A stretch of 64,000 nt of DNA, taken from NCBI RefSeq assembly GCF_002257585.1, contig NZ_CP022743.1, positions 4,092,001 through 4,156,000 on the forward strand, given 5' to 3'. The stretch is from Mucilaginibacter xinganensis. GTDB taxonomy: Bacteria; Bacteroidota; Bacteroidia; Sphingobacteriales; Sphingobacteriaceae. Shown in pieces: positions 1,869 through 62,115 of this stretch. The stretch's first letter is position 1; every line of letters starts with the position of its first letter. Both the position numbers and the translations under genes were made by a program. Under the pieces are notes generated by a model. That model was not told the DNA's origin. It searched no databases and was given only the letters and a program-made list of their open reading frames with translations.

Positions 1869-3206
1869 TCAGACCACCTCTGCCACAACAAAAGTGCTCC
1901 CGCCTGCAAAAACCAGGTCGCCATGGCCGGCATTTTGCCGTGCCGCTGCTAGTGCTGCTTTTACCGATGGGTAGGTGTCGCCATGCAAACCAAATCCTTC
2001 AGCTTTAAGCCATAAGCTTTTTTCATCAAGGCCACGCGGAATATCGGGCCTGCAAAAATAGTAAAGGGCATTTGTTGGGAGTATGGTTAAAATTTTGCTG
2101 ATATCTTTATCATTTACCACACCTAAAACAAAATGCAGCTTGTTATATGTTACACCTGCAATATTTTGCAGCACTTCCTGCATGCCCTCCGGGTTGTGGC
2201 CGGTATCGCAAATAGTTAGTGGGTTGGTGCTTAAAACTTCCCAGCGGCCGTGTAAGCCTGTTAAGGTTTTTACCTGCCACAACGCAGTTTTTATGTGCTC
2301 ATCAGTAATTATAAAGCCCTGTGTGTGCAGTTCATCAACAGCGCATAGTACTGCTTTTATATTTTTAAGCTGGTAGGTGCCTGTTAAGTCGAGTTGGATA
2401 TTAGAAATTAGCTGCTGGCGATTAGCAGTTAGTTGATTGCTTTTAAGTTCTATATTTAAAAACTCATTCGCATTACCTTCTACCCCCTGATCTATAGCTC
2501 CAGATGGCTGACCGCTTATTTTCGACGTCATCACCTCCGAAGCAAAAGTAATTTTTGATTTGCAAGCTTTGGCTTTGGATATAAACACGTCGGCAACCTC
2601 CTCCTGGTACTCACCAACAATTACCGGGATTCCCTGCTTAATAATCCCTGCTTTTTCGGCTGCTATCAGCTGAAGCGTATCGCCCAAAATATTCATGTGG
2701 TCCCATCCTATGTTGGTGATCACAGAAAGCAGCGGGGTTATCACATTGGTTGAGTCCAGCCTACCGCCAAGGCCAACTTCAATAACGGCGACATCAACCT
2801 GCTCTTTAGCAAAAACATCAAATGCCAGGGCAACCGTCATTTCAAAAAAAGAGGGGCGAATTTCGTTGAAATGGTGCTGCTGGGTCGCAACAAAATCAAT
2901 AACCTGTTGCTCGCTGATCATTTGCCCGTTTATGCGGATACGTTCCCTGAAATCTTTTAAATGGGGTGAAGTATATAGCCCGGTTTTATAACCTGCGATC
3001 TGTAATATCGCTGCCAGCATGTGCGATGTTGATCCTTTGCCATTTGTACCGCCAACATGCACACATTTAAACTTGTGCTGCGGATTGTCTAGGTTATTCA
3101 ATAACGCAATGGTATTGGTTAGGTCCGCTTTATAGGCTGATGCGCCATCGCGGGTAAAAAGAGGTAGTTGACTATAAAGATATTGAATGGTTTCCGCGTA
3201 GTTCAT
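1869..3206 (-). CDS. folC: bifunctional folylpolyglutamate/dihydrofolate synthase
   Basis: FolC adds glutamate to dihydropteroate and to folates using ATP. The P-loop GTNGKGSTSHM, the DxxxLGGRLDSTNV segment and the C-terminal GSTFVVAEVV are present. I take the ATG at 3206 (MNYAETIQYLYSQLPLF) rather than in-frame upstream starts at 3239 and 3224, because Bacteroidota homologues begin at this point and the upstream codons run through a palindromic intergenic repeat. The segment between about residues 205 and 250 is long and low in complexity (SKISGQPSGAIDQG, then SNQLTANRQQL) and part of it resembles an intergenic repeat read in frame. It is the last gene of the TPR-barrel-exbBD-tonB run. Confidence 0.95.
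   Translation of the reverse strand: MNYAETIQYLYSQLPLFTRDGASAYKADLTNTIALLNNLDNPQHKFKCVHVGGTNGKGSTSHMLAAILQIAGYKTGLYTSPHLKDFRERIRINGQMISEQQVIDFVATQQHHFNEIRPSFFEMTVALAFDVFAKEQVDVAVIEVGLGGRLDSTNVITPLLSVITNIGWDHMNILGDTLQLIAAEKAGIIKQGIPVIVGEYQEEVADVFISKAKACKSKITFASEVMTSKISGQPSGAIDQGVEGNANEFLNIELKSNQLTANRQQLISNIQLDLTGTYQLKNIKAVLCAVDELHTQGFIITDEHIKTALWQVKTLTGLHGRWEVLSTNPLTICDTGHNPEGMQEVLQNIAGVTYNKLHFVLGVVNDKDISKILTILPTNALYYFCRPDIPRGLDEKSLWLKAEGFGLHGDTYPSVKAALAAARQNAGHGDLVFAGGSTFVVAEVV
2395..2452 (-). repeat. possible in-frame remnant of an intergenic repeat inside folC
   Basis: On the minus strand this stretch reads AACTAACTGCTAATCGCC and then AGCAGCTAATTTCTAA, the same vocabulary of AACTGCTAA/AACTGCAAA units that fills the exbD-tonB gap (4120-4195). 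It is translated as the odd SNQLTANRQQLISN segment before the conserved DLTGTYQLKN. The resemblance is by eye and short, so this may be chance. Confidence 0.35.
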
Positions 3207-3302
3207 GGTTGGATAGTTGTCCATGGTCGATAGTCCCAAGACATCGGCAAATTTAATTCAATCTTCATAAAAAACCATTTTCTATTGACTATCGTCAACG
3301 GA
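3207..3302. repeat. dispersed palindromic repeat upstream of folC
   Basis: The gap between tonB and folC is made of TGGTCGATAGTCC / GACTATCGTC-type units in both orientations. Its folC-proximal end contains CCATGGACAACTA (minus strand), which is found exactly again just upstream of the yebC-family gene at about 55890-55903. Such units recur in Sphingobacteriaceae intergenic regions (general knowledge). No gene is seen in it. Confidence 0.65.
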
Positions 3303-3309
3303 CTAATTC

Positions 3310-4113
3310 TCAATCCACCTTAAACCTGAAAGTATATTGCCCTTTTTGGGTGCCCGATGCTGGAGTGGATGCCGTAAATTTTGTATTTTTTATTGAATTG
3401 ATACAGGCTTCTATTAAACTCAGGTCTGCACGGGTTTTGGCTCTGTTTGAGGTTGCCGAAATGACGTTGCCGTTTTGATCAACTACGAAATCAACCACAA
3501 CCACACCCGGAATCCGGTGAATATTTTGGGGGTCGGGTGCGCTCACAAAGCTCCAGTTAGGCATATTTAAACCATTGCCCGATCCACCTTTCCCATAATT
3601 ATCACTCAGGGTCGATCCATTTTTGCTCCCCTGGTTACCGGGGGTTGCCGCAGTGCCATCGCCCTCGCCTGCGCCTTTATTGGTAGCCCCTTTATATAGC
3701 GCGTTTTGGTTCACAACTGCTTTAGCTGCCGGTTTAACCGGCTGGGTAGCTACCGTTTGACTTTGCTTTTTTGAATTAACAGCCACTGTAGGCGCATCTT
3801 CTGCGCCCTGGGTTACTACTTTTTTGTCGCTGTTATCCTCCTGCGTTTTTTGTTCGGTAGGCGGGGCTGTATTTACCTTTGTTGGCTGAGTTTTATTTGC
3901 CTTTTCCGCAACGGATGGCTCTTCGGTGCTTGATTGATTGGTACCCATACCTTCGTCAACCGTACCATAGTTTACCAGTATGCCACCGGTACCATCCTGC
4001 TGAACCGGCGGATTTATGAAAACAATAAAATAGCACAATGCAATTACAACGGCAAGTATAACGCCCGTTGCTAAAAATGCTTTGGGATAATTATTTTCTT
4101 CTTCCTGGTACAT
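3310..4113 (-). CDS. TonB-family energy transducer
   Basis: A 267-residue TonB protein that would carry proton-motive energy from ExbBD to outer-membrane partners. It has one N-terminal membrane helix (about residues 12-33), a long Thr/Lys/Gln/Pro-rich periplasmic linker (40-195) and a TonB C-terminal domain (about 200-267) with IPGVVVVDFVVDQNGNVISA and a terminal YTFRFKVD strand. It lies 91 bp after exbD on the same strand, so it is likely the dedicated partner of this motor. The linker is more acidic and Gly-rich than the classic Pro-Lys TonB linker. Confidence 0.9.
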   Translation of the reverse strand: MYQEEENNYPKAFLATGVILAVVIALCYFIVFINPPVQQDGTGGILVNYGTVDEGMGTNQSSTEEPSVAEKANKTQPTKVNTAPPTEQKTQEDNSDKKVVTQGAEDAPTVAVNSKKQSQTVATQPVKPAAKAVVNQNALYKGATNKGAGEGDGTAATPGNQGSKNGSTLSDNYGKGGSGNGLNMPNWSFVSAPDPQNIHRIPGVVVVDFVVDQNGNVISATSNRAKTRADLSLIEACINSIKNTKFTASTPASGTQKGQYTFRFKVD

Positions 4114-4204
4114 GTTCAGTTAGCAGTTTTGGTTCGCAGTTTGCAGTTATTATTTGGCAGCAATATGTTTAACTGCCAACTACTAGCTACCCGCTTAAAA
4201 CTTC
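4114..4204. repeat. dispersed repeat between exbD and tonB
   Basis: The gap contains units such as GTTAGCAGTTTTGG, CGCAGTTTGCAGTTA and AACTGCCAACTACTAG: a degenerate direct and inverted AACTGC/GCAGTT repeat. Similar wording occurs at 21296-21377 before the second FtsX-like permease. No gene is seen in it. Confidence 0.55.
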
Positions 4205-4603
4205 TTATTTCGGTTCTGTTGCCAAAACCATTTTAATATTTAATTTTTGCGATACATCCATTACCGCCACCACATCCTGTATAGCCACAGTTTTGTCAAC
4301 ATACAAAACTATAGTAAGTTCTGTAGCCATTTTTTTGTAGCCGGCTAAAACGGTTGGCAGGTCAGCAACAGCAACAACCTTTTTATCAACGGTATATTGA
4401 AGATCTTTACTGATGGATACATTAATGGTTTTTTTAGAAACCGACTGGCCCGATGATGATTTAGGCAGTAGTAACTTTACCACGTTCGGATTGGTCACCG
4501 TTGATGCGATCAGGAAAAAAAGGAGCAGGAAAAACATAATGTCATTCATTGCCGATGTATGCACCTCGGCCGATACCCCTCTTTGTTTTTTTCTTAAATT
4601 CAT
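4205..4603 (-). CDS. exbD: biopolymer transport protein ExbD/TolR family
   Basis: A 132-residue motor subunit that forms the rotor-like dimer inside the ExbB ring. A short basic cytoplasmic N-terminus is followed by one membrane helix (about 19-38) carrying the essential Asp at position 21 in AMNDIMFFLLLFFLIAS, the residue protonated in known ExbD/TolR proteins. The periplasmic domain (45-132) has normal length. Its ATG overlaps the exbB stop by the ATGA arrangement, so translation is coupled. Confidence 0.95.
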   Translation of the reverse strand: MNLRKKQRGVSAEVHTSAMNDIMFFLLLFFLIASTVTNPNVVKLLLPKSSSGQSVSKKTINVSISKDLQYTVDKKVVAVADLPTVLAGYKKMATELTIVLYVDKTVAIQDVVAVMDVSQKLNIKMVLATEPK

Positions 4604-5313
4604 TTGCTCGGTTCTTCTAACAGGTCAATAAATTCAATGGCATCGGTTTCAAGCTTCAGTATCACTTTATCAACCATCATATTTAAAATATGATAACACA
4701 CATAAGCCACAATACCTACAAATAAACCGGCTGCCGAGGTAACCATTTTAACATATAATCCACCGGATATAACGCCCATACTGATGTTATCCGTCTTTGA
4801 GATATCATAAAAAATTTTGATAACCCCGGCAATGGTTCCCAGGAAACCAAACATGGGTGCAATACCTGCAACTATACCCAAAATACCAATATTCTTTTCC
4901 AGTTTTGATACTTCCAGCTTGCCGATGTTTTCAATTGCGCCTTCAATATCCTTAATGGGGCGGCCAATTCTTAAAAGGCCTTTTTGCAGCATCCTGCCCA
5001 ATGGCGTATTGCTGTTGCGGCAAATGGCCACAGCCGACTCAAGGTTTCCTGAAATAATGCTTGAACGTACCTGCATCATCAGGTTCGATTCGTTTTTGGA
5101 GGCTTTACGAATGGTAAAATATCTTTCAAAAAATATCACCAGGCCCAGAACCGCCAAAATACCTATCGGGACCATTACCCAACCGCCTTTTATCAGCAAA
5201 TCGCCAAAACGCAATTCTTGCTGGGGCAGGGCTGCCAGTTGTTGGCCCGCCTGTTTGGCGGTGTCTATAAGCTTATTTGCAGTGTCGGTAGCCTGTATAA
5301 ATAGTAATGTCAT
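4600..5313 (-). CDS. exbB: MotA/TolQ/ExbB proton channel protein
   Basis: A 237-residue ExbB-type stator with three membrane segments: about 43-63 (WVMVPIGILAVLGLVIFFER), 135-162 (GILGIVAGIAPMFGFLGTIA) and 178-208. The conserved pore-lining small-residue and Thr pattern of the second and third segments is present. The N-terminal periplasmic extension is short. It starts one base after the stop of the HU/SPOR gene and overlaps exbD by 4 bp, so all three are probably one transcript. Confidence 0.95.
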   Translation of the reverse strand: MTLLFIQATDTANKLIDTAKQAGQQLAALPQQELRFGDLLIKGGWVMVPIGILAVLGLVIFFERYFTIRKASKNESNLMMQVRSSIISGNLESAVAICRNSNTPLGRMLQKGLLRIGRPIKDIEGAIENIGKLEVSKLEKNIGILGIVAGIAPMFGFLGTIAGVIKIFYDISKTDNISMGVISGGLYVKMVTSAAGLFVGIVAYVCYHILNMMVDKVILKLETDAIEFIDLLEEPSK

Positions 5314-5314
5314 C

Positions 5315-6400
5315 TTAAAAATTTATTGGTATTATGTATGATTTTTGATCGATTTTTGCTGCTTTTTTTAGTTCAGCCATTTTGGTGTCCGCATCATCTT
5401 GTGTTGCAAAAGTACCCACAGATATTTTTAACAGCGGACCGGGTGCGTCTGTTAATATTTTGGCGTCAAGGCCCTTGTCCTTTAAACGTTTTACTTCCGC
5501 GTTAGCAGCTCCAATCCGTTTCCGCTTTATGCTGCCCACAACTATTTCGTAACGTACATGTACAACCGTGTCAGTTTTTGCAGCGTTATTTGTTGATGCA
5601 ACTACCGGCGGCGAAGTTACAACTGGTGCTTTTTTTATATCTGTATCTTTTTTAACGGGTACAGGCTGTGCTTTCTTAATAGAGTCAGTATTCTCTTCGT
5701 GCCTGTAAACCGGCACAACGGTATCTGCCTTACCGGTCATCCGCTGGTAAGTAGCGCCTAGTTTATCAAATGCTTCCGGGTAAAATTTGTAAATACCAAA
5801 AACGGCAAGTACTATAACTGTTAATGCAATTAAAAGAATCAGCCAGATATTTTTCCTTTTCTTTTGTACAGGTTCATCTTCAAAATAACTGTCGTGTTCG
5901 TGCGGTTGGGCAGCCACAGGTTTTGAAATAAACACCGGCGCCGGTGAAGCTTCTGTGACAGCTGGCTTTGCGGGCTGCTGGCTTGCTGATGGGCTTAACT
6001 TGTAAATGTTAACAATCGGATAGCCGTAGAACTCCGGGTCATCGGCTATTCTGTCGTTAGCTTTAAAAATAAGCTGATCCTGGTCGGCATAAAACAGGCC
6101 AAGATCGGCAAAAAGGTACTTGCCTGTTGAAGCCTGCTCACGAAGTTTACCAACAAATTTCTCTGTAAAGTATTTGGAAGATGCCAGCGAAATATTTTTT
6201 TTATCTGCAACATATTGCGCAAAAGTATCATCCTCTTTAGGCTCGGGCACAAACTTCACCTTATGATAAGGAGGGTAAAACCTGGCTTCGTTGTCGTCAT
6301 AATATCCGCTCACCCGTTCGCGCACAAAATAGCCGAGGCCGGGTACGCTTACTTCCTCGTACTGCCCCAATAATTCTCTTAAATAATCGGCTAAATTCAT
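5315..6400 (-). CDS. HU-CCDC81-type / SPOR domain inner-membrane protein
   Basis: A 361-residue protein with a cytosolic N-terminal pair of HU-like domains of the prokaryotic CCDC81 type (about 1-65 and 66-137; motifs VSVPGLGYFVRE and FADLGLFY), a Pro-rich linker, one membrane helix (184-206), a second linker with many Lys/Pro/Asp residues, and a C-terminal SPOR domain (about 283-361) that in other proteins binds denuded peptidoglycan glycan strands. The topology places HU in the cytosol and SPOR in the periplasm. It sits immediately upstream of exbB, suggesting that it anchors the Ton motor to the cell wall or links it to chromosome or division; this role is inference. Confidence 0.88.
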   Translation of the reverse strand: MNLADYLRELLGQYEEVSVPGLGYFVRERVSGYYDDNEARFYPPYHKVKFVPEPKEDDTFAQYVADKKNISLASSKYFTEKFVGKLREQASTGKYLFADLGLFYADQDQLIFKANDRIADDPEFYGYPIVNIYKLSPSASQQPAKPAVTEASPAPVFISKPVAAQPHEHDSYFEDEPVQKKRKNIWLILLIALTVIVLAVFGIYKFYPEAFDKLGATYQRMTGKADTVVPVYRHEENTDSIKKAQPVPVKKDTDIKKAPVVTSPPVVASTNNAAKTDTVVHVRYEIVVGSIKRKRIGAANAEVKRLKDKGLDAKILTDAPGPLLKISVGTFATQDDADTKMAELKKAAKIDQKSYIIPINF

Positions 6401-6460
6401 TTCGCTAAAAGTACGCTTTATTATAAAATATCAAAACCCGGTGTGCCGGACAGGCAAATC

Positions 6461-8308
6461 TTAAAAACTATACCCTACACCGCCAAATATATTAAATCCA
6501 TAATCAGGATAAAATAAATAGCGTTGGCCGCTGGCATTCAATATATTATTTACATGAATGAATACCGAAAACCTATTGGTAGCCTTATAATCAACAGCGC
6601 CGCTCAAATCAGCAAACGAGTTGATGTTAGCATTGGCAGTTGTTGTTGCAGTAGCGGGAAACTGGTATGGATCCGTTATTGAACCGCGGATCAGCAGCGT
6701 TCCTGACACCGTTATCTTGTTATTTATGTTAAAAACGGTACCACCTTTAAACAAAAATTTTGGAAGGTTCCAGGGCTCGCTAACGGTTGCCATCTGGTAG
6801 TCTTTAAATTCAATTCTGCCAAAAATATCAACATCATCCGAAACCTTATAGTCCAGTTCGCCGGTGAGCCCGCTCACACGTGAACGACCGCCGTCATATA
6901 TCACTTTAAACCTGTTGTAGCCGGTCGCAAAATTAAAGTCGCTCACAAATAGCGGCATATTTTTAATTTCATTACGGTATATGGTAGCCTTAAATCCAAG
7001 CCCCGGTGCTATCGTGCCTTTTACACCGGCAGCAATATCAAGCTGATCTATTGAATTGGTGAGATCGATATTTTGCCCCAGGTAGGGATTAAGCATTGCA
7101 AAATCATGAATAGATGATTTATTTACATCGCCTTTGGCTTCCACAAAAATACGAACATATTTAGGGATCACCTGTAACTCGGCCCTGGCGGCCGGGAAAA
7201 TATAGAAAGCAGATTTGTAACCAAACTGGTCAACAATGTTTACACCCGCATCAATTTTATAATTATCTCCCTGGAATTTAATGTAAGGGTTAAGCCTTAT
7301 CAAGCTATTGTTGTGATCGTATAAGCTATCCTTCTGTGTGCTCAGGTCAAGCGACGCCGCTAAGCCGGTATAAAACTGGTTGATAGTTTGATTAAAAAAG
7401 CCCGATAGCACCAGGTTGTTTTCCCTGGCCTGGTAAGCATCGCTGAATGCATATCCTTTTAACTTCACTGCATAGGTGAAATCATTTTCAACATCCTTAT
7501 AGTTTTTGGCAAGTTCACCCTCGGCACCTATGGTGCTGAAATGTTGTTTATCTACCTGTAAAACAGCGGGGGCATTGTACTTATCAAAGCCATAAAAATA
7601 GTTGCTGTTGTAATTATAAGTGATCCTTCCGCTAATGTTATTTTCGTCGCCAACACTTTTACCAAATACACCAACCTCTTCTTTAGCCGAGTTTTGTTTG
7701 TACATGGTCCCGTTTTGGGCAAAGTGTTTCAGGTAACCACCTACCTGCAATGCTTCGTCACGGCCATTGGCAAAATACGCCTCGCCATAAGTTGTTTTTA
7801 AACTGCCCAGCCCGGCTTTTACATAGTTATTGGTGGGTAAAGAATCTTGCTCGGCAGGCCTTTTCATAGCATCCAGCTGTTTTATACTGGTGTTAAGCTC
7901 CAATCTTTTATCAACGGGAACATAAACCAATGGGGCTTTAAATGGCGTTTTATCTTCCAGGTCAGGGTTACGCCTGATTTTCACCGCATCAGCCAATACC
8001 GGTTTATATGCAGTGGTAACTACGATCTCTTCAGACAGGTTACCCTGTAAACCATCATTACCACCTTTTTTTAACGTATCAATCCTGGTAGCTGCATCAC
8101 CTAAACTTTTAGCATTGTTTTTTTGCGGAGCTACTTTTGTTTTAGCCGGCTTTTTTTCCGCAGGTTTTGCTGCCGGCTTTTTTGCCGCAACCTTTTGCGC
8201 CGGCTTTTTGGTTTTATGCTTTGTTTGCGCGTTTGCAGGAACAAAGTATAAAACTGTAATTAAGGTAAGCAGCGTGTATATATATTTAAAGTTCATTGCT
8301 TGTCTCAT
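6461..8308 (-). CDS. outer-membrane beta-barrel with Lys/Ala/Pro-rich N-terminus (TonB-receptor-like, no full plug)
   Basis: 615 residues with a signal peptide ending at about residue 28 (ANAQ), then a strongly basic K/A/P-rich segment (29-65), a TonB-box-like stretch EEIVVTTA (93-100), and alternating barrel strands from about 160 to the terminal GGVGYSF. A complete TonB-receptor plug is not evident: only about 60 residues separate the box-like segment from the first strands. The start at 8308 is two bases after the TPR gene stop; an internal ATG at 8296 also gives a good signal peptide. Tight coupling to the TPR gene and the downstream Ton motor suggests one complex. Substrate unknown. Confidence 0.8.
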   Translation of the reverse strand: MRQAMNFKYIYTLLTLITVLYFVPANAQTKHKTKKPAQKVAAKKPAAKPAEKKPAKTKVAPQKNNAKSLGDAATRIDTLKKGGNDGLQGNLSEEIVVTTAYKPVLADAVKIRRNPDLEDKTPFKAPLVYVPVDKRLELNTSIKQLDAMKRPAEQDSLPTNNYVKAGLGSLKTTYGEAYFANGRDEALQVGGYLKHFAQNGTMYKQNSAKEEVGVFGKSVGDENNISGRITYNYNSNYFYGFDKYNAPAVLQVDKQHFSTIGAEGELAKNYKDVENDFTYAVKLKGYAFSDAYQARENNLVLSGFFNQTINQFYTGLAASLDLSTQKDSLYDHNNSLIRLNPYIKFQGDNYKIDAGVNIVDQFGYKSAFYIFPAARAELQVIPKYVRIFVEAKGDVNKSSIHDFAMLNPYLGQNIDLTNSIDQLDIAAGVKGTIAPGLGFKATIYRNEIKNMPLFVSDFNFATGYNRFKVIYDGGRSRVSGLTGELDYKVSDDVDIFGRIEFKDYQMATVSEPWNLPKFLFKGGTVFNINNKITVSGTLLIRGSITDPYQFPATATTTANANINSFADLSGAVDYKATNRFSVFIHVNNILNASGQRYLFYPDYGFNIFGGVGYSF

Positions 8309-8310
8309 TT

Positions 8311-11300
8311 TTATTCTTTGTTATCCTTTTTCTTTTCATCTGTTCCTGCTGGTTTCTGATCAGTTTTTCCACCAGATAGCTGATCCAGCTTTTGTTTGGC
8401 TGTTGGCAAAATATCATCATCTCCCTTGTAGTTATCAATAACACTTTGCAGCGTTGCTTTAGCCTGGAAATTGTCTTTTAATGCCTCGTAATTGTCCGCA
8501 AGCAAAATAAAAGTCTTCGTAACCCAGTAATCATAGTTGGGCAGGTCCTTTATCAGCTCAAAGCAGGTTTTTTGTGATGCCTTATATTTACCCCTTTCAA
8601 ATTCAATTTCGGCAATGTTATATTTTGCCTCGGCCGCTGCCACGGTTTTGGTGTTGGTAAGGGTATAATCGAATTCTTTCACAGCGCTGGTGGTATCGCC
8701 CCTTTGCAGATAAGCTTGCCCGGCATAAAGGCCTGTTTTAAACTTATCTTCCTGGGCCGTTTTTTCATTTCCCCGCACCAATTTTACGTAGTTTAAAGCA
8801 TCGTCAGGCATTTCCATTTGCGCGTAGCAAAACAACAGGTTGTTTATTGCAAACGTATAGTCAGCTTTATACTCGGAGTTGGTTTCCAGTTTTTTAAGAA
8901 AAGGCACCGCCTCATTATATTTCTTTTGATTGATATACAGTTTCGCCATGCTGATCAGCGATTGCTCTGTGTATGGGCTGGTCCAGTCGTTCAAGATCAC
9001 GTTATAATCGTTAACGGCTTCGGTAAGCCTGTTCAGGTTGACAAAGCTTTGCGCGCGGATAAATCTTGCCTGTTTCTCATAGATCGGCTTATTCGGGAAT
9101 TTATCGTAATAAGCATTTACTGCTCCAACGGTACCCTGCCAGTCGCCTTTTACATAAAGGTTATTAGCAGCTGTTATCATAATGCTTTCCTGGTCGGCAG
9201 CGGTATAGTTAGCAATAGGCGTTGTGGAAGCATAATTAATAAAGGTTTGCGCATCGCCCTTGTCAGTATAGATCTTTTCAATCTCTTTCAGCGCCATTTT
9301 AGCTTCTTCAGATGATGAATAATCTTTGATCACCGTCTTGAATGATTCAACCGCCTGATCATCATTGCCTGCGTTGTAGTCAATAACACCAAGGGTTGCC
9401 AATGCCCGCGGCACATAGCTGCTGCTTGGGTATTTCTTTATCATATCCTGCAAACCTGTTTTTGCCCTGTCGCCGTCGTTTTTTAAATAGTAAGTATAGG
9501 CTATCTCAAATGATGCATCATCCGCATAATCTGAGTTTGGGTAAGTACCGAGCAGATCTGTAAGCGTGGCGATCTTAGTATCAGGGGCGTTTTGCAGGCC
9601 CTGGATCATCCCGCGCTGAAACAAAGCGTAATCCTGACCCGGAGCGTGTTTTTCAATTATCTGGTTGTAATATTCAAGCGCACGACTGTAGTTTTTCATC
9701 ACAAAGTAGCTGTCACCCAGGCGGGTCATTGCATCATTTGTCGTACTGGCGTCTTTTTGCTCGCCCTGTAAAAACTTCTGGAAATAAACAGCGGCTTTTT
9801 TGTATTGCTCATCGCCAAACGCAGCATAAGCTAATGCGTAATTTGCGTAGTTGTAGACATTGGTTTCGCGCGCTCCTTCAAAATCAAGGAACTTTTCAAA
9901 GTTCTGAACAGACTCACCGTATTTCCGTACTTCATACATAGCTTCAGCCATCCAGTAAGTAGTCATCACTTCAATTTTGTTATCAACCGGGTTTTTTAAC
10001 GAACGCAGAAAAATACCTATCGCATTTTCAAAAGCGCGTTCATTATAAAATTCAAGACCGCGGTAGTAAGTAACTTTTTGATAAGCCGCCTGCGCGCTGG
10101 CAGATTTGTTGGGGATTGGCTCCAGGATCTCAACAGCCTCTTTATAGTTATGTGAGTTAAGTAGTTCCTCGCCTAATAAAGTTTTCACTTCATCGGTGCG
10201 GCCTGATCGCGGGTAGTTTCTAAGGTAAGTCCGGGTAGCTTCAAGCGCCTGGGTGTTAAAATCAAGCTCGTATGATAATTTGGCATATTCATATAATGCG
10301 TCTTCCTGCAGTTGCTTGTCAAAGTCTAACCGCGATGCCGCAAAAAAAGCACTGCGTGCGCTTTGTTTATTGTTCATTTTCAGAAAAACGTTACCAAGCG
10401 TGTAATTACCATTCTGGCTAAAAACGTCATTTTGCTGCTGCAGTTTTTCAAGTTCGGAGGCTGCTTTGCCGAAATTGCCAACCTTAAAATAGGTATAGCC
10501 CATTTGGTAGCTATCCTGCGTGTTTTGCGTTTTACCCTGGTCCCTGTCTTCAAACAGGCCATAGTACTTGGCGGAATTGTCATAATCAGCCTTTGCAAAG
10601 TACGATGCTGCAATGATGCGCAGCATTTCAGTTTCGTGCTGCTGGTGTGTGTTTTTTAAAATAGGAACAGCGTAATTAAGTACGTCGTCATAACGCTTAT
10701 CTAAAAAATATACCGCTGTTATATAGTAAGGGTAACTATCTTCGTATTTTTTGGAGTTCTTTAAACGCTCAAAATTCACCAGCGCCAAATGGTAATCTTT
10801 ATTCAGGTAAGCGATGTAAGCAAAGTAGTAAACAGCGTCATCGGTAAACGGCGAGCGGGTGTTTTTCACTTCGCTAAACAGGGCCTGGGCGCTTTTATAA
10901 TCGTTAGTAGCAAAATAGGCGTAGCCCTTGCGGAATTTATACTCCGTATTTTGCCTTCCGCTTAGTTCACTTGCCTCCACCTTATCAAACCAGTGCAACG
11001 CATCGGTGTATTTTTCCTGTCGTGAATAGGAACGACCAATCTGGAAATAGGCCAGTTTTGTTAATGGATTTTCAGGATGTTCCTTGATAAAGCGGAGAAA
11101 CATGCTTTCGGCATCGTCATTTCCCAATTCAAGTGCGCAAAGCGCTTCGTAATATTGCGAGTTCTCTTTAATTACCGATAACTCAGATTCAAACTTTGGC
11201 TGCGTACTGGTTTTAATCCTTGAAGTTTCAACCAAGCGAAATTGTTCGGCCGCAGCAACGTACTTGTTTTTACCAAACAACTCCATAGCGGCATGGTAAG

Positions 11301-11394
11301 TGCGATAAACGTCAAAAGCCTGGTTTTGCTGGGCATGTATTGTTAAAACAAAAAACAGAGGTACAAGAAAAAATGTGTATTTAAGTTTTATCAT
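8311..11394 (-). CDS. large periplasmic/outer-membrane TPR protein
   Basis: About 1027 residues of tandem tetratricopeptide-type helical repeats after a signal peptide (MIKLKYTFFLVPLFFVLTIHAQ). Repeats with the YxxAxxxFxxxxxxxP spacing run through nearly the whole chain, and the C-terminus is a short charged tail (KKKDNKE). I choose the ATG at 11394; an in-frame start at 11460 would put 22 extra residues before the signal sequence. It is the first gene of the minus-strand operon that continues into the barrel, HU/SPOR, exbB, exbD and tonB genes. Proteins of this kind act as scaffolds (compare BamD or gliding-machinery TPR proteins); a specific role here is inference. Confidence 0.88.
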   Translation of the reverse strand: MIKLKYTFFLVPLFFVLTIHAQQNQAFDVYRTYHAAMELFGKNKYVAAAEQFRLVETSRIKTSTQPKFESELSVIKENSQYYEALCALELGNDDAESMFLRFIKEHPENPLTKLAYFQIGRSYSRQEKYTDALHWFDKVEASELSGRQNTEYKFRKGYAYFATNDYKSAQALFSEVKNTRSPFTDDAVYYFAYIAYLNKDYHLALVNFERLKNSKKYEDSYPYYITAVYFLDKRYDDVLNYAVPILKNTHQQHETEMLRIIAASYFAKADYDNSAKYYGLFEDRDQGKTQNTQDSYQMGYTYFKVGNFGKAASELEKLQQQNDVFSQNGNYTLGNVFLKMNNKQSARSAFFAASRLDFDKQLQEDALYEYAKLSYELDFNTQALEATRTYLRNYPRSGRTDEVKTLLGEELLNSHNYKEAVEILEPIPNKSASAQAAYQKVTYYRGLEFYNERAFENAIGIFLRSLKNPVDNKIEVMTTYWMAEAMYEVRKYGESVQNFEKFLDFEGARETNVYNYANYALAYAAFGDEQYKKAAVYFQKFLQGEQKDASTTNDAMTRLGDSYFVMKNYSRALEYYNQIIEKHAPGQDYALFQRGMIQGLQNAPDTKIATLTDLLGTYPNSDYADDASFEIAYTYYLKNDGDRAKTGLQDMIKKYPSSSYVPRALATLGVIDYNAGNDDQAVESFKTVIKDYSSSEEAKMALKEIEKIYTDKGDAQTFINYASTTPIANYTAADQESIMITAANNLYVKGDWQGTVGAVNAYYDKFPNKPIYEKQARFIRAQSFVNLNRLTEAVNDYNVILNDWTSPYTEQSLISMAKLYINQKKYNEAVPFLKKLETNSEYKADYTFAINNLLFCYAQMEMPDDALNYVKLVRGNEKTAQEDKFKTGLYAGQAYLQRGDTTSAVKEFDYTLTNTKTVAAAEAKYNIAEIEFERGKYKASQKTCFELIKDLPNYDYWVTKTFILLADNYEALKDNFQAKATLQSVIDNYKGDDDILPTAKQKLDQLSGGKTDQKPAGTDEKKKDNKE

Positions 11395-11644
11395 AAGGAG
11401 CAAACTAACGATTTGCGAAAATAGCGAAACCTGAAAAGGTATTCCACAATAGTAATTCACATAGTGTGGAGAACATTTTCTTTAACGGACTTAAAATGTT
11501 ACGTGGTATAGGTGTGGAAAACTTTATCAGATATTAGAAATAATTACCAGACAGCAGCTAATGTTTGAATTTATTGAAATTATTTAGTGGTTAGCCGGCT
11601 TGAAACACATAATAGCCTAAGGTATAAAACGTTTATATTTAGTA

Positions 11645-12736
11645 ATGATTAAACCCGTTGCTATATTTTTCTGTTTGGCTGTGGTGGTTTGCTCCGCCCA
11701 ATCCAGCTCCAACCAAAATGATGTTATTACTTTAATTGATGAGCGCCTGCCGGTTACCCCCGGCGAGTTTTATGTTGCTAACGTATTAGATGCGAGGACC
11801 GACAGCAGCCCAGTTGCATCGTTAGCGACGGGCACAAAAGGCTTACCATTTAAAACCCGCGCTGTTGATTTGAAAGGAGGCACCTTGGCCGCTGTTAAAA
11901 AATTCATCAATAACTGTGTGCCCCGCAATGCTGAATTGCTTCCGCTGATTATCAAACTAAAAAAGATAAGTGTAAAAGAACAGGCAAAAGAGGGCGGAAT
12001 GGTAGAAGGGCGGATAGAAGTGTCGTTTTCGTTTAACCTTGACAAGGGTGAAGACGATATGATATATCTGGCAAAATATAACGGCAACGCAGTTTATAAC
12101 AGGGATGCTGTACGTGCCGGTGATATAGAACCAACCCTGCGGCGCCTAATGATCAATGGATTACTATATATAAACAACTGGATGAATACACAGTCCGGGG
12201 CTAATATCAAACTCGCCCGCGGCGTTAAGGTTAACTTTGCAGATTATGCGGAAACACCGGAAGGCGACAGTATCTATTACAGTGTTAAACGACCGTTGAC
12301 CTGGGCTGATTTTCAATCAAAGGTACCTGCCAGCAATTACGAAGCTGAGGTTTTTCCGACATTGGGATATGACGAGCACACAGAAATTATTAATGGAATA
12401 ATAAACCTGCATATTGCTGTTAAAACCTGCTTACCCAAAAGCGCAAGCTGGGTTAAAGCGTATAGCAAAAATGATTACAGCTTAAACCATGAACAAAGGC
12501 ATTTTGATATTGCTAAAATAGCATCTGAACATTTTAAGCAAACCATAAAAGGGCGGCATTTAACCACGGCAAATTACGACGGCCCTATCAATGAAGAATA
12601 CCTGGATGCTTATCGCGAAATGACTAATCTCCAAAAGCAATACGATGAAGAAACCGTTCATGGTACCCATACGTTAATACAGCAGCAATGGAATGACAGG
12701 ATTGATAAGGAATTGAAAGTGCTGGGAATTAAATAG
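11645..12736 (+). CDS. secreted DUF922-like putative zinc protease
   Basis: 363 residues beginning with a signal peptide (MIKPVAIFFCLAVVVCSAQ). The N-terminal half (20-190) is an unrecognised domain. The C-terminal half has the zincin-type motif HEQRH at residues 282-286 (LNHEQRHFDIAKIASEHF), with a downstream Glu/Asp-rich helix, as in the DUF922 family of predicted Zn-dependent proteases. The segment LTWADFQSKVPAS before it is also typical of that family. It is divergent from the TPR operon, about 250 bp away. Protease activity is predicted from the motif only. Confidence 0.75.
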   Translation: MIKPVAIFFCLAVVVCSAQSSSNQNDVITLIDERLPVTPGEFYVANVLDARTDSSPVASLATGTKGLPFKTRAVDLKGGTLAAVKKFINNCVPRNAELLPLIIKLKKISVKEQAKEGGMVEGRIEVSFSFNLDKGEDDMIYLAKYNGNAVYNRDAVRAGDIEPTLRRLMINGLLYINNWMNTQSGANIKLARGVKVNFADYAETPEGDSIYYSVKRPLTWADFQSKVPASNYEAEVFPTLGYDEHTEIINGIINLHIAVKTCLPKSASWVKAYSKNDYSLNHEQRHFDIAKIASEHFKQTIKGRHLTTANYDGPINEEYLDAYREMTNLQKQYDEETVHGTHTLIQQQWNDRIDKELKVLGIK

Positions 12737-12765
12737 CGCAATACTAATGTTTAAATATTGAACGA

Positions 12766-13131
12766 TTAAGCAGCTGCCAACTGCATTTCTATGGTTGAGA
12801 GCAAATCGTCGATATCAAATGGTTTGGCTATAAAAGCGTTCGGAGCGCCTTTCTGATTCATCGAGTCAGACACATTGTGACTCGCAGAAATTAATATAAC
12901 GGGGATATCATGGGTTTCATCAGCAGTTTTTACAGCTTTACAAAGATCCCGCCCATCCATATTACCGAGCATTATATCAAGTAAAATTAAATCAGGGGTG
13001 TGCTCCTTTATTTTTTCAAACAAAAAATGCCCGTCTGAAAGTGTTTCTACCTCGTAACCAGAGTCTTCGAGTATAAATTGCAAAATCTCCAGTATGTCCT
13101 TATCGTCATCCACCGCTAATATCCTTCTCAT
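12766..13131 (-). CDS. receiver-only response regulator
   Basis: 121 residues consisting of a single REC domain with no output domain. Acidic pocket DDD at 8-10, phospho-acceptor Asp52 (LILLDIML), Ser82 in the switch position and Lys103 (FIAKPF) are all in place, so it should be phosphorylated. It lacks a neighbouring histidine kinase; it probably works as a phosphate relay or diffusible regulator like CheY/Spo0F-type proteins. A second such gene lies about 500 bp upstream on the same strand. Confidence 0.92.
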   Translation of the reverse strand: MRRILAVDDDKDILEILQFILEDSGYEVETLSDGHFLFEKIKEHTPDLILLDIMLGNMDGRDLCKAVKTADETHDIPVILISASHNVSDSMNQKGAPNAFIAKPFDIDDLLSTIEMQLAAA

Positions 13132-13638
13132 TTTGTATTATTAAGCATAGTTTATTTTATAATAGCAACATAATATCTACACTGCCCGTTATCTGCATCA
13201 GCAATATCTTATCCATAAATTAACAATTACTGTACCAGTTCTGTTAATTAGGCAGTTGAACTTTATTAACAACGGGTAAGTTTACAATTACTAAAGGTAA
13301 ACTTCCCTTTAATTATCGTAAAACAATTGTTTATAAATACTATTTATCAAAATTGCCGGCCAGTGCTAAATAGGCATTTGTAAATACGTTTGTTTGAAAA
13401 CAGTGTTCAGATTACTAAACTATTGTTCAAAAAAATGAATTAAATGACTGTTTTTGAAAGCGGTGAATAAGCTCAAATCAAGCCGACTGCAAATAATTTA
13501 CTTTTGTAAAACCTACGTAACAAGGCCTTTTACATTTGGCACAAAAAAGCTTTTGAAGGGCAATAAACAGGAGATTTGTTTCATTAACGTGCTTCCGGAA
13601 ATTTATATTTCAACTCATTTTGTAATGTTGCAAAGGTG
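13132..13638. other. AT-rich gap between the two response regulators
   Basis: About 500 bp with no convincing gene. An 86-codon plus-strand frame beginning at 13454 overlaps the end of the second regulator and lacks any recognisable domain. Boxes resembling TAnnTTTG occur on the plus strand (for example TACATTTG at 13531-13538), but no gene follows them. It may carry the promoter of the downstream regulator on the minus strand. Confidence 0.5.
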
Positions 13639-13995
13639 CTACAACAGGTTGTTGACCTTTTCCACCAGTTCTGTTAAGTCAAATGGTTTGTTGATAATGG
13701 CATCGCAGCCATAAGCAAAAAGTTCACTGTTGTTATTCACGTAGGCTGAGTATATAATTACCGGAATATTCTTAAAACGGGGGTGAGATTTAAATTGCAT
13801 ACAAAGTTCGCCACCATTTAAACCTGAAACTCGATAATCTAAAATAACAAGGTCAGGGATAAAAGTTTCTGCCAACGAAATAACAGCGTCGCTTCTTGAA
13901 GTGCTCTGTACCTCAAAGTTTTCGTAGGTTAATGTTTCGTGTACTATATCCAGTATATCCTGGTTATCATCCAACACTAAAATACGCTTTGCCAT
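13639..13995 (-). CDS. receiver-only response regulator
   Basis: 118 residues from the ATG at 13995 (MAKRILVLDDNQDIL); an upstream TTG at 14001 is in frame but less likely. A single REC domain with Asp9/Asp10, phospho-acceptor Asp53 (LVILDYRV), Ser in IIYSAY and Lys in INKPFD. There is no output domain. It is a diverged paralogue of the regulator at 12766-13131, and both may be served by hybrid kinases elsewhere in the genome. Confidence 0.9.
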   Translation of the reverse strand: MAKRILVLDDNQDILDIVHETLTYENFEVQSTSRSDAVISLAETFIPDLVILDYRVSGLNGGELCMQFKSHPRFKNIPVIIYSAYVNNNSELFAYGCDAIINKPFDLTELVEKVNNLL

Positions 13996-14124
13996 GCACA
14001 ATTATCAAATTAAAAAAAGTATGGATGTAAATAAAACCTTTAAGTGTTAAATGTTACTCCGGATAAATATAGCGCAATTATTGTATTAATAATTAAATAA
14101 TTGCCAAATTAGTAAAAAAGTTAC

Positions 14125-15339
14125 TTAGAAGGCTTCTCCAAGGCCAATAATAAGTCCATTATATCCCTTGCTAAATCCGTAGTCCAAGGCAATATTAGTG
14201 TCAGACCTTTTATTGAATTTTATCCGGAGGCCTCCACCTGCCGCTGGGTTAATATACGCAAAACGTCGGGTATTTGGTTCGCTGGCGGTGTTAAAGTTGG
14301 TAAAAATTACAAAGCCGAACAATCCGTTGGCTGTAATATCCCTGCGGTATTCTGCCTCAAAATAAAGCAAGCTTTCGCCCCTGTAACGGTTTTGCTCAAT
14401 CCCGCGGCCCGACCTTTGATAAGGATCATTCCCAATACCCGGTAAATTTAAAAATGGAGTGCCACTTGATATCGTAGTCCAATAGTAACTCCACATAGCC
14501 AAAACATTTTTAGGCCCTGAATTTGTTAACGATATGTACTTGCGAAAATCGATGTACACAGATTGGGAGTTATTATCGCTGCCCATAAAACCGGCATTGT
14601 GCCTGTAAATAAAACTGCCATAAATACCCGGAATAGGATTAATTGAGTTTTGCCTTGTATCATATACCGCATTCAACGTAAGTCCCGATGAAAATGAATT
14701 GTCACCTGAAGTGCCATATTGATAGCCGGTAAAATCTTTTAATGAAGTGGTATTGGTATTGTTTTTTGTATTAATACTGAAATAATAATCCAGGTTGTAG
14801 CCAAACCCAACGTAAAAATAAGGCTTAATCCGTTTTAACACGCTTTGGTAAAAGCGCACGTAATTAAAGTTAACTAAAAGCTTCTCATCTTCGGCGCGTT
14901 TACCACCCAACCCCCAGGTGTATTGCGGATATACCAAAAAACGGGTATCGCCCTGCACATTATAGGCATTGTCTGGTGTCCAGATACTTGAATGGATAGG
15001 CAGGCCATACCTGCCTTTTAAATTGAAGTAGGGTGCAAAAGTCACACTTGAAAGATAAGTTGTTTTGCGGTTACCCAAATAAAAGCCGGCAGTGGTTGAA
15101 GTAACCAGGGCCTTACTGCCACCGGGTACGGACGTCGAGATAGGTAAAATTGAAAAGTACACCTGCTTTTTTTCAGGGTGATAAGGCCTGGTTTTCAATT
15201 TAAACAACTTGGTTCCTATGTCAATAAGGTCTCTCTGACCTGTGGTATCCACTACAACATTTGCCGTATCAGTGGGTGTTTGCGCCAGCAGGCAAAAAGG
15301 CAACAAACAAAATATAATTACTCCCCAGAATTTATTCAT
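14125..15339 (-). CDS. Omp85/BamA-type outer-membrane barrel (POTRA-less)
   Basis: 404 residues with a signal peptide (MNKFWGVIIFCLLPFCLLAQ). After a short periplasmic piece the chain is an Omp85-like 16-strand barrel domain: features include the GRGIEQNRYRGESLLYFEAEYR block, where the RG pair corresponds to the conserved loop-6 (V/I)RG(F/Y) motif, and a terminal strand IIGLGEAF. There is no room for POTRA domains. It is a tandem paralogue of the next gene (15424-16635), with near-identical blocks such as STTAGxYLGxRKTTYLS. Function unknown; relatives assemble or secrete proteins, or move lipids. Confidence 0.8.
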   Translation of the reverse strand: MNKFWGVIIFCLLPFCLLAQTPTDTANVVVDTTGQRDLIDIGTKLFKLKTRPYHPEKKQVYFSILPISTSVPGGSKALVTSTTAGFYLGNRKTTYLSSVTFAPYFNLKGRYGLPIHSSIWTPDNAYNVQGDTRFLVYPQYTWGLGGKRAEDEKLLVNFNYVRFYQSVLKRIKPYFYVGFGYNLDYYFSINTKNNTNTTSLKDFTGYQYGTSGDNSFSSGLTLNAVYDTRQNSINPIPGIYGSFIYRHNAGFMGSDNNSQSVYIDFRKYISLTNSGPKNVLAMWSYYWTTISSGTPFLNLPGIGNDPYQRSGRGIEQNRYRGESLLYFEAEYRRDITANGLFGFVIFTNFNTASEPNTRRFAYINPAAGGGLRIKFNKRSDTNIALDYGFSKGYNGLIIGLGEAF

Positions 15340-15423
15340 GCCTATTTAAAAGAAAAAAAAGGAATTTTGTTTGGTTTTGGTAAATAAATAGTTATAAATT
15401 TTTATGTATATTTCAAAAAGAGG

Positions 15424-16635
15424 TTAAAAAGCTTCTCCCAAACTCAATGTACAGGAAGAATAACCCCTGCTTACGCCATAATCCATACAGATATTGGTGT
15501 CGGATTTTTTATTGAACTTTAGCCTAAGCCCGGTACCACCGGCCGGGTTCCAATAAACAAACCGGTTACTTCTCGGCTGACTTGCAGAATTTATGTTTGC
15601 AAAAAGCACAAAGCCCAGCAAACCGTTTTCAGTAAGGTCACGGCGGTATTCACTTTCAAAATACACCAGCCTTTTCCCCCGGAACCTGTTTTGTTCAATT
15701 CCCCTGCCCGACCGTTGGTAGGGGTCCATCCCTATGGCCGGTAAATTAAGATACGGAGCCCCCGAATTTAAGGTCGACCAATAGTAACTCCAAAATGCCA
15801 GGATGTTTTTCGGCCCTTTGTCAGTAAGGGCAACATATTTCCGGAAATCAACATATAACGATTGCCAGTTATTGTTACTTCCCGTTACAGTAGTATTGTA
15901 CCTGTAAATGGCATTCGCGTACAATCCGGGAAAAGGGTTTAACGAATTTTTACGGGTATCATATAGTAAATTAACGGTTGGGCCTGATGAACTGAAGCTT
16001 TTGTCATTTAATGTGCCGAATTTGTATTTGCTGAAATTAATTAGCGGGTTAGTGGTACTGGTTTCAACATCCAGGTAATAATCCAGATCAAAGCCTGCTC
16101 CAACAAAAAAGTAAGGTGTGATCCGTTTAAGCGCACTTTGGTAAAAACGTACATAATTATAGTTAACCAGCAATTTATAACTTTCGGGCTGGCCGCCGCC
16201 CAAACTCCATGTGTACTGAGGATAAACCAACAAGCGGGTGTCGCCCTGTATGTTCCAGCTGTTGTTGCTTAACCAAATGCTTGATCGCACAGGTAAACCA
16301 TACCTGCCCTTTAAATTAAAATATGGCGTAAAACTAATGGTAGATAGGTAGGTGGTTTTTCTATCGCCCAGATAAATGCCTGCGGTAGTTGAAGTTACCA
16401 GGGCCGTACCGCCGCCCGGTATGGATGTTGACAAGGGTAAAAAAGAAAAATAGATCTTCTTTTTTTCATCTAACGAAATAGGCCGCGACTGTGATTTAAA
16501 AAGTGTCCCTACTATATCTATCAGGTCCTTTTGCCCGGTAGTATCAATATTTAAATGGCTTTTGTCAATCGGGTTTTGAGCTATCAATAAAGACGGTAAT
16601 AAGCCAAAAATCAGGAATACATAAAATCTTCTCAT
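15424..16635 (-). CDS. Omp85/BamA-type outer-membrane barrel (tandem paralogue)
   Basis: 403 residues, signal peptide MRRFYVFLIFGLLPSLLIAQ, then the same barrel architecture as the neighbour at 14125-15339: shared GRGIEQNRFRGKRLVYFESE block and terminal strand LSLGEAF. The pair is in tandem on the minus strand with an 84-bp gap, evidence of a local duplication. The two have diverged most in the segments predicted to be external loops (after FSKYKFGTLND and around TTVTGSNNNW). No POTRA, patatin or other passenger domain is present. Confidence 0.8.
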   Translation of the reverse strand: MRRFYVFLIFGLLPSLLIAQNPIDKSHLNIDTTGQKDLIDIVGTLFKSQSRPISLDEKKKIYFSFLPLSTSIPGGGTALVTSTTAGIYLGDRKTTYLSTISFTPYFNLKGRYGLPVRSSIWLSNNSWNIQGDTRLLVYPQYTWSLGGGQPESYKLLVNYNYVRFYQSALKRITPYFFVGAGFDLDYYLDVETSTTNPLINFSKYKFGTLNDKSFSSSGPTVNLLYDTRKNSLNPFPGLYANAIYRYNTTVTGSNNNWQSLYVDFRKYVALTDKGPKNILAFWSYYWSTLNSGAPYLNLPAIGMDPYQRSGRGIEQNRFRGKRLVYFESEYRRDLTENGLLGFVLFANINSASQPRSNRFVYWNPAGGTGLRLKFNKKSDTNICMDYGVSRGYSSCTLSLGEAF

Positions 16636-21292: not shown

Positions 21293-21377
21293 GGGGAAGA
21301 AGTTGGCAGTAACGAGCTGGCAGCAGGCAGAAATTAAAGGTCTGCCTATGAACTATAAACCATTAACGATGAACTAA
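21293..21377. repeat. dispersed repeat before permease 2
   Basis: The short gap is filled with AGTTGGCAGTAACGAGC, GGCAGCAGGCAGAAA and CATTAACGATGAACTAA-type wording, similar to the exbD-tonB gap. It ends directly at the ATG of the next permease. No gene is seen in it. Confidence 0.45.
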
Positions 21378-23747: not shown

Positions 23748-23833
23748 GCAGCGGGCTATTTGCGGGTGGGCAGTAAGCCTCTTCTAATGCCTGCCCACAG
23801 CCCCTAATGACACAATGACTAATGACCAATACA
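23748..23833. repeat. dispersed repeat before permease 3
   Basis: Contains GCGGGTGGGCAGTAAG facing TGCCTGCCCACAGCCC as an imperfect inverted pair, followed by CTAATGACACAATGACTAA and ATGACCAATACA direct units that run up to the start codon. An in-frame ATG at 23822 lies within the direct units, so I prefer the ATG at 23834. No separate gene is seen. Confidence 0.5.
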
Positions 23834-62001: not shown

Positions 62002-62115
62002 TAGTTTTGGTTCATTGTTTTTTGTTCAGTAATAACATCGCGCCTCATTAGCCGAAGGGCAGCACTTTAACTTCGCTGTTTTTAAACCGCTCCTGTTTAG
62101 CGCACGGCTCAGCGT

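Follow-up and report, generated by a model that had tools for sequence, protein, structure and literature searches.

It is an unanswered question how the Bacteroidota, a phylum dominant in the gut and in soils, draw in and retain their outer membrane when they have no canonical Tol-Pal system. A survey published in 2025 reported no identifiable tol-pal loci in Bacteroidetes, noted this outer-membrane gap and expected undiscovered systems (PMC12204202). Here we analyse a six-gene operon of Mucilaginibacter xinganensis (complete genome, 5.3 Mb) that lies in a window of 64,000 nucleotides (contig NZ_CP022743.1, positions 4,092,001 to 4,156,000). The operon runs on the minus strand from window position 11394 to 3310 and encodes, in this order, a giant TPR protein, an outer-membrane barrel, an inner-membrane protein with HU-like domains, a transmembrane segment (TM) and a SPOR domain, and then ExbB, ExbD and TonB; folC is the next gene. 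The best-supported reading of its function is that it works like Tol-Pal, and we estimate at about 0.5 the probability that the operon encodes a Ton-type trans-envelope machine filling the Tol-Pal niche at division. The features of the locus, in window coordinates, are the following:

8311 to 11394, minus strand: TPR protein, 1027 amino acids (aa), Sec signal followed by a helical solenoid (open reading frame (ORF) list, domain scans and AlphaFold2 (AF2) model)
6461 to 8308, minus strand: outer-membrane barrel, 615 aa (ORF list, AF2 model, PDB fold matches and sequence profile)
8009 to 8032, minus strand: TonB-box-like segment EEIVVTTA, barrel residues 93-100 (sequence)
7958 to 8008, minus strand: conserved motif YKPVLADAVKIRRNPDL, barrel residues 101-117, predicted to be disordered (AF2)
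6464 to 7825, minus strand: predicted beta-barrel domain, residues 162-615 (AF2)
5315 to 6400, minus strand: HU-HU-TM-SPOR inner-membrane protein, 361 aa (domain scans)
6044 to 6397, minus strand: cytosolic HU-CCDC81 pair, residues 2-119 (Pfam, first domain above the cut-off, second below it)
5351 to 5551, minus strand: periplasmic SPOR domain, residues 284-350 (Pfam, above the curated cut-off)
4600 to 5313, minus strand: ExbB, 237 aa (MotA_ExbB, E 2e-22)
4205 to 4603, minus strand: ExbD, 132 aa (ExbD model, E 2e-24)
3310 to 4113, minus strand: TonB, 267 aa, TM, low-complexity linker and C-terminal domain (TonB_Cterm, E 8e-7)
1869 to 3224, minus strand: folC, in Bacteroidia the conserved final gene of the block

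A first-pass annotation of this DNA had described six co-directional, tightly spaced genes, and the analysis bore this out: the ORFs lie exactly where that annotation had placed them, in the same order, and their domains were confirmed by models. The intergenic distances from the TPR gene to the TonB gene are 2, 60, 1, −4 and 91 bp. The same description had overlooked folC, which follows TonB after about 85 bp and is conserved in the Bacteroidia block, probably as a passenger.

Conservation of the block was assessed in a sample of 148 genomes of the phylum, with presence of the TPR protein defined by E ≤ 1e-40. The protein was found in 107 of these genomes, including all 37 of the class, and the barrel was present in 61/61 genomes sampled in the order and, by profile search, in 73 of 74 of the class. 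In a gene-order census of 87 loci from 28 families, which is uneven since family f1 was sampled more heavily, the TPR and barrel genes were adjacent in 75 loci, barrel and HU genes in 52, HU and ExbB genes in 41, and ExbD and TonB genes in 37; the complete order from TPR to TonB was kept in 31 loci belonging to nine families of several classes. Persistence of the gene order beyond close relatives, on which the first-pass annotation had staked its proposal in advance, was thus observed. Among close relatives only, represented by the 80 named loci (mostly Mucilaginibacter) kept from an order-level search with a barrel DNA pattern, all seven genes stood in order in 67, the remainder including short contigs. 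The conservation of the block is far beyond chance, and it is highly likely that the six genes form a single, conserved trans-envelope gene set of the Ton type. The combination that had been proposed, in which a Ton-type motor and its dedicated TonB are joined by a SPOR protein and by a barrel bearing a TonB-box-like segment, stands as one ancient gene set; the barrel and the TPR protein may be clients of this motor, as that annotation had also suggested.

To relate this gene set to Tol-Pal, the distribution of both systems was compared in the same 148 genomes. Pal above the curated threshold was detected in exactly 30 of them, all in a Chlorobiaceae-like family (f17), and full-size TolB was found in f17 alone; sub-threshold OmpA-like proteins were common across the sample. 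TolB_N was absent from the M. xinganensis genome and from the class. The giant TPR protein, for its part, was found in no f17 genome, and when two f17 genomes were searched with the TPR profile, the ybgF/cpoB gene of tol-pal came out as the best match. Representative f17 loci carry tolQ, tolR, a tolA-like gene, tolB, two pal genes and ybgF, and in the f17 genome annotated in full (G069) TolQ, TolR, TolB and YbgF scored above their curated cut-offs.

The genomic position of the two systems was also informative. In both f17 loci the gene immediately before tolQ encodes a DUF92 membrane protein of roughly 525 aa. A DUF92 homologue (profile hidden Markov model, E 1e-115) takes the corresponding position immediately before the TPR gene in families f16, f19, f34 and f45 (five loci), the DUF92 assignment having been made for four proteins. 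Since a DUF92 gene directly precedes both tolQ and the TPR gene, the operon and tol-pal hold the same chromosomal site in sister lineages, an arrangement indicative of in-situ replacement or remodelling. The f17 loci with the canonical tol-pal genes and the DUF92 gene in front are L262 (G069, positions 7437-16428) and L263 (G079); in L262 an unrelated ORF of 559 aa (10969-12648) is located between tolA and tolB, and pal is duplicated.

The motor genes provide the complete set of Ton components, namely ExbB, an ExbD with a trans-membrane aspartate, and an arm protein that matches TonB C-terminal models. Residue Asp21 of the operon ExbD aligns with Asp25, the trans-membrane proton-carrying residue of ExbD. 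Only two MotA/ExbB-family loci exist in the M. xinganensis genome, the operon and a nutritional set composed of one ExbB and two ExbDs (ExbB-ExbD-ExbD). Moreover, where the operon is broken up, the unlinked ExbB, accompanied by ExbD and TonB, groups with the operon ExbBs and apart from the nutritional ones. Because the genome has just these two loci, the other with a different composition, and because unlinked operon-type ExbBs share a clade with the operon ExbBs, the operon motor is a second motor, distinct from the nutritional one.

The AF2 model of the barrel, built with 70 relatives (mean predicted local distance difference test score, pLDDT, 70), shows about 22 strands in residues 162-614. 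Residues 21-159 are disordered in this model, and the signal helix alone is folded before the strands, in agreement with the earlier remark that the barrel leaves little room for a plug. The 50 best PDB fold matches were TonB-dependent receptors without exception, with E values down to 6e-16, and a profile made from 45 barrel homologues reached TonB-dependent receptors by sequence alone (E 9e-9). The barrel belongs to no Pfam family, and no plug-family match was obtained in Pfam or NCBIfam. Since the receptor-type fold and sequence matches coincide with a disordered N-terminus and with no plug-family match, the protein is predicted to be a TonB-dependent-receptor barrel that lost its plug. Residues 94-117, comprising EEIVVTTA and then YKPVLADAVKIRRNPDL, contain the most conserved 18-residue windows in both the order-level and the genus-level alignments, and they are not the top-conserved segment in the phylum-wide alignment. 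The pattern fits a putative linear binding motif, and TonB may be the partner that binds it.

The TPR protein was modelled with 50 relatives (mean pLDDT 87.8) as an unbroken helical solenoid of about 54 helices spanning residues 25-1006, in agreement with the TPR repeats detected by Pfam. Its score of 179 bits on the tol_pal_ybgF model, against a cut-off of 90, is a sum over many repeats. The PDB fold matches were considered as a clue to function and set aside as uninformative, all of them being generic TPR solenoids. The protein is a probable periplasmic scaffold. A second strong giant-TPR match was found in genomes G184 and G001 only. G184 encodes two giant TPR proteins (L087 and G184:C66; E 5e-269 and 9e-115), possibly a duplicated system; in G001 the second TPR protein (G001:C1:1170328-1172787, E 3e-215) shares or adjoins an 875-aa open frame that matches the N-terminal part of the barrel, perhaps as a copy that arose by duplication or fusion.

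The third gene joins cytosolic and periplasmic domains across the inner membrane. Its product matched HU-CCDC81_bac_1 (E 6e-11), HU-CCDC81_bac_2 (E 5e-4, below the cut-off) and SPOR (E 6e-6), this SPOR domain being one of just two above the curated cut-off in the M. xinganensis genome. Among 40 relatives of the protein, SPOR was detected in 27, HU_bac_2 in 26 and HU_bac_1 in 22; on 14 control genomes the HU Pfam family gave matches in Bacteroides alone. Membrane proteins of the HU-CCDC81/SPOR type (Pfam PF18174/PF18175) were reportedly described by Burroughs and colleagues in 2017. The operon gene is a member of that group, with its HU pair, TM and SPOR domain; what the operon adds is the link to a TonB motor, a TPR protein and a plugless barrel. 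In a literature search that was incomplete, no publication was found that treats these six genes together as a system. The component families are each already known, and the arrangement is best placed as a variation on the Ton/Tol type of machine that the searched literature does not describe.

On these observations we base a model of how the machine would act. ExbB and ExbD would turn proton flow into motion of their own TonB, which would span the periplasm and engage the exposed, unstructured N-terminus of the barrel. Without a plug to unfold, the pull of TonB would act on the barrel itself, an integral outer-membrane protein. By binding the barrel, the motor or both, the TPR solenoid may act as a scaffold in the periplasm, a part that CpoB plays next to Tol-Pal. 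SPOR domains bind denuded septal glycan, and the one in this operon would position the assembly at denuded septal peptidoglycan; the HU part may sense, hold or report on the nucleoid. The outcome would be active constriction and tethering of the outer membrane at division, and thereby envelope integrity.

The comparison with Tol-Pal itself shows both likeness and difference. Both systems combine a motor driven by the proton-motive force, a stator, a trans-periplasmic arm and a TPR protein in one operon; the operon studied here is also phylum-wide in single copy, it shares a DUF92-flanked locus with the sister lineage, and its SPOR domain suggests a septal link. On the other hand, it has no TolB, no Pal and no TolQ orthologue, its HU-SPOR protein is without a Tol-Pal counterpart, its TPR protein is larger by a factor of about four, and in place of a lipoprotein its predicted outer-membrane partner is a plugless receptor barrel integral to the membrane. 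Membership of the Tol-Pal family proper was considered and rejected, since TolQ orthology, TolB and Pal all fail.

Several observations weigh against a Tol-Pal-like role. The operon ExbB was considered as a TolQ orthologue and discarded: a tree subject to a long-branch caveat placed the operon and nutritional Bacteroidota ExbBs opposite E. coli TolQ/ExbB and the f17 TolQ with support of 100/100, and the protein reached 65 bits on the tolQ model against a cut-off of 221. Its TolQ-likeness in best NCBIfam and PDB matches was likewise dropped, the nutritional Bacteroidota ExbBs scoring alike. A number of HU proteins, for instance in most f2 loci, also have no SPOR domain, and the HU-SPOR gene is unlinked from the block in some families. 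The complementarity between canonical Tol-Pal and the operon is a single phylogenetic contrast involving one family. Furthermore, by the tests applied, 11 of the 148 genomes (in f12, f15 and f28, and G073) lack canonical Pal/TolB and the TPR operon alike. A different tether is found in the literature as well: a Pal-like TPR-PD40-OmpA protein of the PorE type is a published candidate for what Tol-Pal does elsewhere (PMC12204202). Deletion of a PorE-type gene in Cytophaga hutchinsonii raised vesicle release about six-fold with no division defect (PMC5891637). Deletion of the genes named tolA and tolB in C. hutchinsonii, where tolA is not necessarily the operon TonB, left growth and cellulose digestion normal.

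With regard to the f2 loci (L068-L075), the HU protein beside the barrel mostly ends soon after the TM, with no SPOR, and the motor genes are located elsewhere. The genomes with neither system are G061, G064, G065, G070, G073, G075, G138, G145, G181, G189 and G193, all of which encode SprA. In the eight of them that were examined, the best TPR matches do not have the other operon genes alongside, and G061, G065 and G073 encode a TPR protein of about 1200 aa with no barrel or motor beside it.

PorE is the strongest competing literature claim for tethering. Like the operon in the role proposed here, PorE/Pal-like lipoproteins are put forward as an outer membrane-peptidoglycan tether or Tol-Pal analogue of Bacteroidota (PMC12204202, PMC5891637), but they are single fused lipoproteins, have no motor and are unrelated to the six operon genes. 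Such a protein may be a partner of the operon or a competitor for its role, and both proposals can hold at once provided that PorE is the partner through which the operon motor binds the wall.

The first-pass annotation had proposed a surface-assembly, export or wall-remodelling machine, and its first two options amount to a Ton-powered device in which the barrel is an exit pore opened or driven by TonB and the TPR protein is an adaptor or chaperone. A 22-strand barrel without a predicted folded plug would suit an exit pore, TPR scaffolds are common in secretion, and protease secretion in Myxococcus requires a TonB-dependent receptor (PMC6434023). We nevertheless regard export as unlikely. Apart from DUF92 and folC/holA-type passengers, no recurrent neighbour of the operon loci was informative, and none points to cargo, modification or a nutrient. 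Associations with SusCD-type lipoproteins and with type IX secretion were both tried and rejected, as the distribution of the operon matches neither SusD, lacking in several TPR-positive genomes (e.g. G068, G078, G086, G090 and G102), nor the SprA translocon, absent from operon-bearing G001 and present in f12, f15 and f28 without the TPR gene; since its occurrence is independent of both, the operon is tied to neither. Export also leaves unexplained the exclusion of canonical Tol-Pal and the shared locus. Export and surface assembly are the parts of the early proposal that found no particular support. Remodelling of the wall or envelope is the better fit: judged by distribution the operon stands in for canonical Tol-Pal, and in four families it also takes the position of tol-pal.

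The genes might also be separate modules that travel together: a TPR-barrel pair acting, for example, in outer-membrane biogenesis or tethering, a second general Ton system, and an HU-SPOR division factor. The operon is indeed split across loci in families f2-f7, f10 and f11, and folC, surely unrelated, also co-travels in Bacteroidia. This explanation is rather improbable, as the genes stand together in the same order in many distantly related families and the barrel retains its TonB-box-like region. Where the operon is split (e.g. in f3, f4, f5, f7 and f11), every module survives, leaving TPR-barrel, HU-SPOR and ExbB-ExbD-TonB, the last with folC in one case.

A machine for surface motility or for moving adhesins, like the Agl-Glt complex of Myxococcus, is very improbable. 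Agl-Glt brings a TolQR-like motor, TonB-like arms, a TPR protein and outer-membrane barrels into one trans-envelope assembly, a parts list that the operon resembles, and the operon TonB has a weak match to the AgmX/PglI C-terminal domain model; the Myxococcus machinery is the subject of PMC3169522. The two are phylogenetically and functionally distinct, though, and the likeness rests on the motor and on generic folds. Every class genome tested has the operon, and non-gliders are presumably among them. GldL/GldM is the proton-driven motor of gliding and secretion in Bacteroidota. A proton-driven motor of their own is also reported for these activities in PMC8986121. Finally, an ordinary nutrient-uptake transporter operon, with which the locus shares ExbB, ExbD and TonB, a 22-strand receptor-family barrel and a TonB-box-like segment, is likewise very improbable, as the operon has no predicted plug or SusD-type lid, is single-copy and phylum-wide, combines a single ExbD and a dedicated TonB with large TPR and HU-SPOR partners, and lies outside any nutrient locus in a genome that has a separate ExbB-ExbD-ExbD set.

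Regarding expression, transcription of the operon probably starts between 11394 and 11645, as judged from the gene layout, since the gene upstream of the TPR gene faces the opposite way. A scan of the window for promoter consensus sequences gave no excess over shuffled sequence, and terminator-like sites occurred at about twice the shuffled expectation. A DUF922-like protein is encoded at 11645-12736, divergently from the operon, and adjoins it in some other Mucilaginibacter loci too (L040, L041). Elsewhere in the window, two adjacent and clearly related genes at 14125-16635 encode proteins of about 400 aa, the first with a weak Omp85-superfamily match and the second with none. On the plus strand, 18863-26251 holds a run of three large genes for ABC-type permeases (789-809 aa, by eye similar to MacB/FtsX), and two neighbouring related genes at 60661-63789 (446 and 557 aa) appear by eye to encode paralogous secreted glycoside hydrolases.

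Returning to the Tol-Pal-like machine, we tentatively advance a further step, which is possible although doubtful: the operon may be a second, independently built Tol-Pal, with the tol-pal genes replaced, in the ancestor of most Bacteroidota and at the same locus, by a Ton-derived machine, a receptor barrel that lost its plug serving as a force-bearing outer-membrane anchor and the HU-TM-SPOR protein coupling nucleoid, septal wall and outer membrane. If the operon does fill the Tol-Pal gap, the question of how Bacteroidota handle their outer membrane would become directly testable by a few knockouts, a receptor barrel would have been repurposed as a mechanical anchor, and it would be explained why Bacteroidota keep another Ton-type motor in addition to the nutritional set.

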